From NCBI GenBank assembly GCA_021851895.1, contig JAJZQJ010000003.1:63431-111674 (forward strand): 48,244 nt of DNA, in the 5' to 3' direction. The translations under genes and the position numbers were made by a program. Shown here in pieces: positions 1-23,995 of this stretch. Below the pieces are notes generated by a model that was not told where the DNA came from, did not search any database, and was given only the letters and a program-made list of their open reading frames with translations. The stretch's first letter is position 1; every line of letters begins with the position of its first letter. The DNA comes from a bacterium. Lineage in GTDB: Bacteria > Patescibacteriota > Minisyncoccia > Phycocordibacterales > UBA6899.

Positions 1-180
1 GTCACTAAGTCTTTAGCCAGCAGAGCTGTCAAAAGCCTAAGTGCTCGTGACCACGGCTCGGCTACAGCCGCTTCGGCTGGGAAGCCTTCAGCGGCTGGCT
101 TCGCAGCCTCCGCCTTTCGAGTCCCGCACCGGGTCGCAGCGGGTAACAAAAAAGAGCTTGCGCTCTTTTTTGTCCCGCTG
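1..180 (-). repeat. tRNA-Leu-associated structured element (truncated by window edge)
   Basis: Minus strand: hairpin, then TGCGACCCGGTGCGGGACTCGAA (inverted copy of tRNA 3' end), then a GC-rich multi-hairpin core homologous to the tRNA-Ala element (CGAAAGGCGGAGGCYGCGAAGCCRGCCGCTGA; CACGAGCACTTAG...CTTAGTGAC). Confidence 0.8.
146..173 (-). terminator. Symmetric hairpin ACAAAAAAGAGC-GCAA-GCTCTTTTTTGT after tRNA-Leu
   Basis: Perfect inverted repeat with A/T tracts; the identical 28-mer occurs after tRNA-Ala. Confidence 0.8.
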
Positions 181-263
181 TGCCCGGGGCGGGACTCGAA
201 CCCGCACGCTTTTTATGGCGGGAGATTTTAAGTCTCCTGTGGCTACCATTACACCACCCGGAC
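181..263 (-). tRNA. tRNA-Leu (anticodon TAA)
   Basis: Minus strand GTCCGGGTGGTGTAATGG...GACTTAAAATC...GGGTTCGAGTCCCGCCCCGGGCA; acceptor GTCCGGG/CCCGGGC pairs, TTCGA T-loop, anticodon loop with TAA; no encoded CCA. Confidence 0.93.
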
Positions 264-1363: not shown

Positions 1364-1597
1364 GGCACGGGCGGGAATCGGTCACAAGTTACTAAGTCTT
1401 TTGACGCTCTACGAGACGTCAAAAAGCCTAAGTACTCGCGACCCCGACTCGCCGACCGTGCACGCGGCTAGATTTATCACGAGCGAAGCTCGGATAAAAC
1501 AGCGCCGGGTGACGGTACCCGGCTCCGTCTTTCGATTCCCGCCCGTGCACCAAAACAAAGCAAAACAAACGCTTTCGCGTTTGTTTTGTCGTTTTGA
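1364..1597 (-). repeat. tRNA-Cys-associated structured element, distal tandem unit
   Basis: Minus strand: hairpin AAAACAAACGCGAAAGCGTTTGTTTTG; inverted tRNA copy 1533-1548; core; CTTAGTAACTTGTGACCGA; terminal direct copy of the tRNA-Cys 3' end at 1364-1380. Confidence 0.85.
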
Positions 1598-1812
1598 GGC
1601 ACGGGCGGGAATCGGCGTCAGCTCACCGCCGTATATTCGTTCGCTGCGCTCCGAATCTACGGGGTGGCTCCTGCCCGAGCTCGCTCGTCCTCGCGCAAGA
1701 GCGCTGCGGGCGGAGCTCCGCTTTTCGATTCCCGACGAAAGCACCTGATGAAGGTGCTTTCTCCCGTGAAAATCAAAACTCTCGAAGCTGAGCTTCGAGA
1801 GTTTTGATTTTG
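1598..1812 (-). repeat. tRNA-Cys-associated structured element, proximal tandem unit
   Basis: Bounded by direct copies GGCACGGGCGGGAATCG at 1598-1614 and in the tRNA at 1814-1830; short inverted copy CGATTCCCG at 1726-1734; 3' domain 36/44 identical to the tRNA-Tyr element. Confidence 0.83.
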
Positions 1813-1884
1813 AGGCACGGGCGGGAATCGAACCCGCGCATGGCGGTTTTGCAGACCGCAGCGTTACCACTTCGCCACCGTGCC
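1813..1884 (-). tRNA. tRNA-Cys (anticodon GCA)
   Basis: Minus strand GGCACGGTGGCGAAGTGGTAACGCTGCGGTCTGCAAAACCGCCATGCGCGGGTTCGATTCCCGCCCGTGCC. Confidence 0.95.
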
Positions 1885-15648: not shown

Positions 15649-15719
15649 CGGAGTGTAGTATACCGGTAGTATTTACGATTCGGGTTCGTAAGGACCGGGT
15701 TCGATTCCCGGCACTCCGA
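15649..15719 (+). tRNA. tRNA-Pro (anticodon CGG)
   Basis: CGGAGTGTAGTATACCGGTAGTATTTACGATTCGGGTTCGTAAGGACCGGGTTCGATTCCCGGCACTCCGA. Confidence 0.93.
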
Positions 15720-15960
15720 CAGTATTGTTCATTTGCATCGTGTCGGAGTGCCGTGAATCGAACGGATAGGGGCCGGGAAAGGTGTGCCTTGCCCGTGTCG
15801 GAAGGCAGCGAGTCTTCGAGCGTCGGAAACCGTGGGTTTCCGAGGAGCAATGCGGTGCGGGACCCTTTAGGGTGCGCCGCATGCGACGTGAGATGTCCCG
15901 GTGCGCGTGCAAAGTTCGTGAGATACCCCGGACAAGACGCGAAGCGTCTGTATTTTACTC
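15720..15960 (+). repeat. tRNA-Pro-associated GC-rich structured element (divergent type)
   Basis: TGTCGGAGTGCCGTGAATCGAA (15741-15762) is an inverted copy of the tRNA-Pro 3' end; followed by several GC hairpins; no obvious terminal direct copy. Confidence 0.65.
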
Positions 15961-16031
15961 GGGCCTATAGTACAGTGGTAAAACGCTGCATTCGCATTGC
16001 AGAGACGGGGGTTCGATTCCCCCTAGGTCCA
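15961..16031 (+). tRNA. tRNA-Ala (anticodon CGC)
   Basis: GGGCCTATAGTACAGTGGTAAAACGCTGCATTCGCATTGCAGAGACGGGGGTTCGATTCCCCCTAGGTCCA. Confidence 0.94.
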
Positions 16032-16234
16032 CAGCGGTACAAAAAAGAGCGCAAGCTCTTTTTTGTTTTCCGCTGTGCGACCTAGAGGGAATCGAAAGGC
16101 GGAGGCCGCGAAGCCGGCCGCTGAGGTCACGACCGAAGCGGTCGTTGCCGAGCCGGGGTCGCGAGTACTTAGCAAATAAGGAGCGCAGCTCCGCATTTGC
16201 TTAGTAACTTGTGACCGACCCCTAGGTCCACAGC
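16032..16234 (+). repeat. tRNA-Ala-associated structured element
   Basis: Hairpin; GACCTAGAGGGAATCGAA inverted copy (16079-16096); multi-hairpin core; CTTAGTAACTTGTGACCGA; direct copy CCCCTAGGTCCACAGC at 16219-16234 (tRNA copy 16020-16035). Confidence 0.87.
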
Positions 16235-16319
16235 TATCCCAATAGAGCGCAAGCTCATATCCTCCAACCTATCAACGTATATCTTAAATTAGAAAATATG
16301 ATAGTATGGCACAAAACAG

Positions 16320-23673: not shown

Positions 23674-23756
23674 GCGTCGGTGGCGGAGCGGTCAATCGCA
23701 ACAGACTGTAAATCTGTCGTCTTCGGGCTACGTAGGTTCGAATCCTACCCGGCGCA
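23674..23756 (+). tRNA. tRNA-Tyr (anticodon GTA)
   Basis: GCGTCGGTGGCGGAGCGG...CAGACTGTAAATCTG, long variable arm, GGTTCGAATCCTACCCGGCGCA. Confidence 0.94.
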
Positions 23757-23995
23757 CAAAGGTACAAAAAAGAGGCTATACGCCTCTTTTTTGTTTACCT
23801 TTGCGACGCCGGATAGGATTCGAAGGACGGAGCCGGGGCTACCGCCGCCCCGGCTGCTGATCTTATCCGGCCAAAGGCCGTGATAGATCCAGCCGGGCGC
23901 GCGGTCGGCGAGTCCTGGCCCTACCTGCACCCCGCATTTTCTGAGCGTAGCGAAAGAAAATACGGAGGTGACAGAGGGGCGAATCCTACCCGGCA
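23757..23995 (+). repeat. tRNA-Tyr-associated structured element
   Basis: Hairpin ACAAAAAAGAGGC...GCCTCTTTTTTGT; inverted copy GACGCCGGATAGGATTCGAA; core; direct copy CGAATCCTACCCGGC at 23980-23994 (tRNA copy 23739-23753). Confidence 0.87.

Follow-up and report, generated by a model that had tools for sequence, protein, structure and literature searches.

In the Patescibacteria genome that contains the window (the whole stretch of 48,244 nucleotides analysed here; genome G000, 1.1 Mb, 99.7% complete) and in its congener G001, most tRNA genes and the tmRNA gene are followed by a gene-free unit of 0.1-0.3 kb. These units probably constitute a family of short mobile elements that carry no gene, are specific for tRNA and tmRNA 3' ends in Patescibacteria and would be mobilised in trans. 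The unit described at tRNA-Ala(cgc) in a first-pass annotation of the window is one case of these elements, whose probable mobility and spread that annotation had missed.

The unit downstream of tRNA-Ala(cgc)

The features identified at the tRNA-Ala locus are the following.

15961..16032 (+): tRNA-Ala(cgc) (ARAGORN, Rfam); its nt 54-73, termed R, are at 16012-16031
16039..16066 (+): terminator-like hairpin with a GCAA loop and A/T tracts, brought with the unit (inverted repeats, fold; trailer and inverted trailer on its flanks)
16079..16096 (+): R', inverted copy of tRNA-Ala nt 54-71 with one mismatch, one extra base ahead at 16078
16083..16225 (+): structured core of type A, closed by helix P1 (match to model R1 with E=1.4e-11; fold z=-10; covariation)
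16216..16234 (+): DIR, direct copy of the tRNA-Ala 3' end, CGA(3-nt deletion)CCCCTAGGTCCACAGC (repeat search)
16241..16258 (+): distal hairpin, decayed; either left over from a second unit or the original terminator after displacement (repeat family; sister allele)

The 16-bp direct repeat noted earlier was recovered, CCCCTAGGTCCACAGC being exact at both 16020-16035 and 16219-16234, and 0.12 chance matches to it with up to 3 mismatches are expected in the window. The true start of the direct copy is the CGA at 16216, with a 3-nt deletion inside the copy. The inverted copy, reported with one mismatch, indeed pairs 16079-16096 with 16012-16029 at 17 of 18 positions. It runs on, through one extra base, into the inverted trailer (CCGCTGTG), so that the tRNA-Ala end and the hairpin form a single long palindrome. 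Folding of the region 3' of the tRNA is far above that of shuffled sequence (z=-10).

The hairpin sequence AAAAGAGCGCAAGCTC at 16043-16058 recurs, as had been observed, at 16241-16256 with one mismatch, 198 bp downstream. The earlier definition of the repeated unit as tRNA 3' end, hairpin and core was right, and two-unit tandems are present at other tRNAs of the same genome. The accompanying proposal of a decayed second unit holds in part. In the sister allele (G001, L062) a type B unit comes first; behind it lie the 3' half of a type A unit and a further tRNA-end copy, hence a partial further unit, which supports unit turnover at this locus. The distal hairpin is absent from the sister locus. 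The hairpin at 16241 may be a decayed second unit or the original tRNA trailer and terminator, displaced downstream by insertion.

Units at the other tRNA genes of the window and of the genus

Units are present at all five tRNAs of the window. The neighbouring tRNA-Pro gene (15649) shows an identical design with a different core.

15649..15720 (+): tRNA-Pro(cgg) (ARAGORN)
15741..15763 (+): inverted copy of the tRNA-Pro 3' end (inverted-repeat pair)
15764..15891 (+): type B core at tRNA-Pro (GGGGYCGGG ... GAAACCGTGGGTTTC ...)
15892..15934 (+): two imperfect DIR-like 3' ends (GAGATGTCCCGG, GAGATACCCCGG), the end of the first B unit and a truncated further one (repeats; sister locus)
1812..1884 (-): tRNA-Cys(gca) (ARAGORN)
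1603..1737 (-): first type A unit in the tandem at tRNA-Cys (model match, E=7e-07)
1369..1544 (-): second type A unit in the tandem at tRNA-Cys (model match, E=1.8e-14)
180..263 (-): tRNA-Leu(taa) (ARAGORN)
1..129 (-): type A unit at tRNA-Leu(taa), truncated at the edge of the window (model match)
23674..23757 (+): tRNA-Tyr(gta) (ARAGORN)
23811..23991 (+): type A unit of tRNA-Tyr (model match, E=7.4e-05)

Searches with the Ala and Pro units revealed dozens of further copies in G000 and G001, nearly all adjoining tRNA genes, and closely related cores follow many different tRNAs within one genome. With a score of at least 20, a strict cut-off beyond which the unthresholded listing holds more, the tRNA's own nt 59-73 was found inverted downstream of 24 of the 40 tRNAs of G000 and 27 of the 41 of G001, compared to 0.4-0.9% in mismatched tRNA/locus pairs and to none upstream (0/39 and 0/41); chance is therefore excluded genome-wide. 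A direct copy is present downstream of 13/40 (G000) and 12/41 (G001) tRNAs against about 1% in the control, and many direct copies in this genus are worn down to 7-9 nt. Units also occur at the tmRNA (L031) and at a tRNA gene that a group I intron interrupts (L025, L073). Two-unit tandems were found at tRNA-Cys (in the window), Arg(gcg), Trp, Lys(ctt) and Leu(taa), the one at Arg(gcg) being of mixed type, A then B.

The tRNA-Leu(taa) locus (L029 3050-3450, C5 of G000, adjoining window positions 1-263) holds type A units in an array, nearly identical to one another, together with a stretch of 10 N, and several units sit at contig ends. The units probably break assemblies, and they may account for some assembly breaks at tRNA genes.

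Other structures were observed in the same loci. A different structured element of about 150 bp lies 3' of tRNA-Ile(gat) in both congeners (L038, 739-1000, and L082), with a direct repeat of the tRNA 3' half from the anticodon stem onward; it is possibly a related class that uses the anticodon arm. Short palindromes (CAAAAACCGGAACGGTTTTTGG) stand in tandem after the direct copy downstream of tRNA-Asp (L039) and also after several other units. A Cyclic di-GMP-II riboswitch match (64.6 bits) was detected in G001 at L072 2373-2456 (-).

Anatomy of the units and core types

The order of a unit is as follows: the tRNA with its nt 54-73 (R), the trailer, a hairpin with a GNRA loop, the inverted trailer, R', the core and DIR. 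R' consists of nt 54-71 in inverted orientation; type A units usually have one extra base there, facing nt 71-73. DIR starts at nt 56/57, and the duplication ends at nt 76 in genomes that encode CCA and near nt 73 otherwise. Only in the genus of the window is R' commonly long (about 18 nt and the trailer); the extra base and a long inverted copy also occur in certain other families of the order, in which R' may be split by a further hairpin at the acceptor/T-stem junction (L005, L007, L003, L004). In compact units the match of R' to the tRNA is limited to about 5-9 nt, for the most part the complement of the universal T-loop. In the genus of the window R' is both long and specific to its tRNA. 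Among 72 units of G000, G001 and G285, R' mismatches are few near the T-loop and more frequent toward the acceptor end. At Val(cac) and Leu(cag) the two congeners share identical R' mismatches although core or tRNA differs, which indicates that R' can be inherited while cores get replaced. Fold-back copying at the hairpin is a possibility for how R' becomes tRNA-specific.

At least three core types share this one geometry. Type A, the commonest, reads TCGAA-rG-sCGGAG...GAGsC-GGGGTCGCGAG...CTTGTGACC, type B GGGGTCGGG...AGGA...AACCGTGGGTT, and a third type found in G021 AAGGTGTACTG..GTAA. Type A is modular, its 5' and 3' domains being freely combined, and some copies are devoid of the 5' part yet end in DIR (L028). 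At tRNA-Ser and tRNA-Ala loci of G188, G133 and G199 (L231, L233, L240, L247), core types that fit neither A nor B were observed, and the terminal tRNA 3'-end copy of these units begins a few bases later.

The cores are covarying structures that fold on the tRNA-sense strand

A covariance model (R1), built on the compact type A form, replaced a regex extraction that had missed many units, and found 81 units in 100 loci. Its helices contain 357 cells in which both sides have changed, against 89 after shuffling and 43-72 when the partners were slid. The closing helix P1 pairs the inverted T-loop/T-stem copy (R') with the direct copy, and its covariation arises in part because both strands derive from the tRNA, an excuse that does not hold for the other helices. 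Type B possesses covarying hairpins of its own. Cells with G-U outnumber those with A-C by 105 to 26 overall and by 85 to 7 in the long helix, an asymmetry which identifies the tRNA-sense strand as the one that folds and which disfavours a tRNA-like RNA of the opposite strand.

An intrinsic terminator alone does not describe the units, as conserved covariation in the core extends beyond the hairpin. No Rfam 15 family matched the cores at gathering or relaxed thresholds.

Filled and empty sites at orthologous tRNAs

Evidence for mobility came from three congeners, G133, G188 and G199, where a tRNA that carries a unit in one species can have an ortholog with an empty site in another. At Ser(gga), G133 carries after the CCA an insert of 148 bp, composed of 127 bp and a 21-bp copy of nt 56-76, and in the empty G199 locus the sequence resumes at the same base, with a flank score of 124 past the direct copy versus 8 within the element. 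Arg(cct) and Arg(gcg) gave likewise filled and empty sites with junction-exact flanks. Leu(gag) and Glu(ctc) are in agreement, with offset or shorter flank matches, and in several other pairs the flanks are too diverged to judge. Some of these presence/absence differences could reflect units that were lost when their direct repeats recombined.

At the Lys(ctt) site of G188, the 3' end found in the empty-site congeners is preserved in the distal copy, whereas the G188 tRNA itself has changed at nt 57 and at both members of one T-stem pair; the distal copy thus represents a fossil of the end that the tRNA had originally. An intron in the T-loop that would have to be removed to restore the tRNA is disfavoured: at every locus with a called tRNA the proximal copy is intact, and it is the distal one that erodes, as in G000, or fails to keep up with changes, as at Lys(ctt) of G188.

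Distribution across Patescibacteria

Matches to R1 were obtained in 57 of 389 Patescibacteria genomes, in the same order, in the class and beyond, with a patchy distribution; this count and the numbers of hits are lower bounds, given the stricter filters and the scoring of at most 10 candidates per genome. Relatives with the type A core include Parcubacteria group, Lloydbacteria and Campbellbacteria MAGs, and the type A core pattern was found in none of the viral contigs. Twenty hits were then picked by model score alone, in genomes outside the model set and with tRNAs disregarded. Seventeen of them closely follow a tRNA on the same strand, and the 3' end of that tRNA is repeated beyond the core; one of the other three reads as a tmRNA 3' end, one is at a contig edge and one is decayed. 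In a few cases (L163, L198, L199, L200) the tRNA end next to the unit is decayed or cannot be recognised.

Insertion mechanism and alternative explanations

Taken together, these data point to insertion at tRNA 3' ends. Such an insertion would leave an intact tRNA, a spacer hairpin, the folded core and a direct copy from nt 56/57 to the encoded 3' end (73, or 76 with CCA). The tRNA would stay functional because the adjoining copy is complete, and repeated insertion at one tRNA would produce a tandem stack of units. We propose that the elements are mobilised in trans by an integrase supplied by the host or by an element, which would strike the conserved T-loop box common to all tRNAs and would use as its substrate the folded strand, as RNA or single-stranded DNA.

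The main rival to this integrase model is RNA-templated insertion, in which an element transcribed as a tRNA trailer is copied back into DNA at other tRNAs by target-primed or tRNA-primed retro-insertion. Folding of the tRNA-sense strand, the terminator-like GNRA hairpins and a duplication that stops at the encoded tRNA 3' end are all compatible with it, as are the partial copies made of the core 3' part and the direct copy, which resemble 5'-truncated retro-copies but may also stem from deletion. No match to RVT_1 (PF00078) was obtained, however, in nine genomes (G000, G001, G021, G285, G188, G199, G287, G170 and G330), and we regard this route as rather unlikely. Y1_Tnp (PF01797) gave no match in G001, G188, G199, G133, G170, G108, G330, G277 and G131. 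The carrier genome G188, which is a single contig, lacks both domains, and both were rejected as a common mobiliser given their absence from several carriers.

A host RNA function, with the inverted copy pairing with the tRNA end in 3' processing, attenuation or as a decoy, would make the units other than selfish. The structure is conserved, the pairing spans the trailer and varies with it at Ala(tgc) (AGAGGC/GCCTCT versus AGAGGT/ACCTCT), and many type A units have the extra base opposite tRNA nt 71-73. We nevertheless judge this function unlikely, since orthologous sites are empty beside intact tRNAs in congeners, the R' mismatches of Leu(cag) and Val(cac) are kept in both congeners despite the differing tRNA or core, the bias of R' mismatches to wobble-compatible changes is weak (32:20 in the same 72 units), and a long R' is largely a trait of a single genus.

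Another alternative, that a tyrosine integrase inserted non-autonomous elements site-specifically in the classical way and that these then decayed, appears equally improbable. Integrases that target tRNAs usually employ a repeat from the T-loop to the tRNA end as attachment block, which the repeat observed here fits, and the insertions are precise. On the other hand, one family occupies very many tRNAs with differing blocks, no integrase gene lies within the units, and Phage_integrase was detected in all 22 genomes, carriers and non-carriers alike, with one copy each in G000 and G001. An Xer-type enzyme is thus possible as the mobiliser, but not indicated by the presence of the domain. Finally, a process without mobility, in which tRNA 3' ends and terminators were only duplicated in tandem and decayed, would fit the tandem units and decayed copies but is already disfavoured and most improbable, as it explains neither related structured cores at unrelated tRNAs in many families nor the exact empty sites.

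Within the preferred reading of trans-mobilised elements, we raise tentatively, and with more doubt than the reading itself, the idea of a new mobile class, in which the folded tRNA-sense strand would ride on tRNA transcription and re-enter tRNA genes via the T-loop box with the help of a host enzyme other than a reverse transcriptase or any known transposase, some lineages copying part of the new host tRNA into the closing helix with every move.

Patescibacteria have tiny genomes, which tend to be described as poor in mobile DNA, yet a folded gene-free element stands at most tRNA genes of one of them, where tRNA trailers and terminators are largely element-derived. As congeners differ in the tRNAs that are occupied, they offer a natural test bed for non-coding elements that persist without a recognisable transposase.

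Comparison with known systems

We found no description of this family in the open-access literature, the only literature that could be searched, which is weak evidence of absence. Group I introns of Patescibacteria tRNAs are likewise structured RNAs in tRNA genes, and one locus has both: a group I intron match apparently within the tRNA gene (L025 782-1037 (+), 74.5 bits; L073 804-1073 (-), 67.3 bits) is followed by a type A unit in both congeners. Since the intron was seen solely as a separate insertion in one tRNA, it was rejected as the identity of the core; in contrast to it, the elements follow an intact tRNA and give no Intron_gpI match.

REP/REPIN-RAYT, BOX, ERIC and MITE sequences are, like the elements, short non-coding mobile repeats made of modular stem-loops with compensatory changes. 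The elements differ in their specificity for tRNA and tmRNA 3' ends, their long target copy and their several folded cores, and, with regard to REP/REPIN-RAYT, in that several carriers are devoid of Y1_Tnp. Islands and prophages that integrate into tRNAs by a tyrosine integrase share with the elements a direct repeat of the tRNA 3'-end segment around the insert and the restoration of the tRNA. Unlike them, the elements carry no genes, use most tRNA types of a genome and have a conserved folded core.

Casposases recognise a tRNA 3'-end target set by the TpsiC-loop segment, duplicate this target, frequently integrate in tandem and prefer a single-stranded substrate (PMC9939771). Casposons encode cas1 and polB, produce duplications of 14-15 bp and have terminal inverted repeats, whereas the elements are gene-free and too short for genes, their duplications of about 18-21 bp (nt 56-73/76) follow the tRNA end, and their only terminal pairing is P1 between the tRNA-derived ends. 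Both insert at the tRNA 3' end with duplication of the target, and the elements described here bear on tRNA ends as insertion sites and on mobility guided by RNA or single-stranded DNA.
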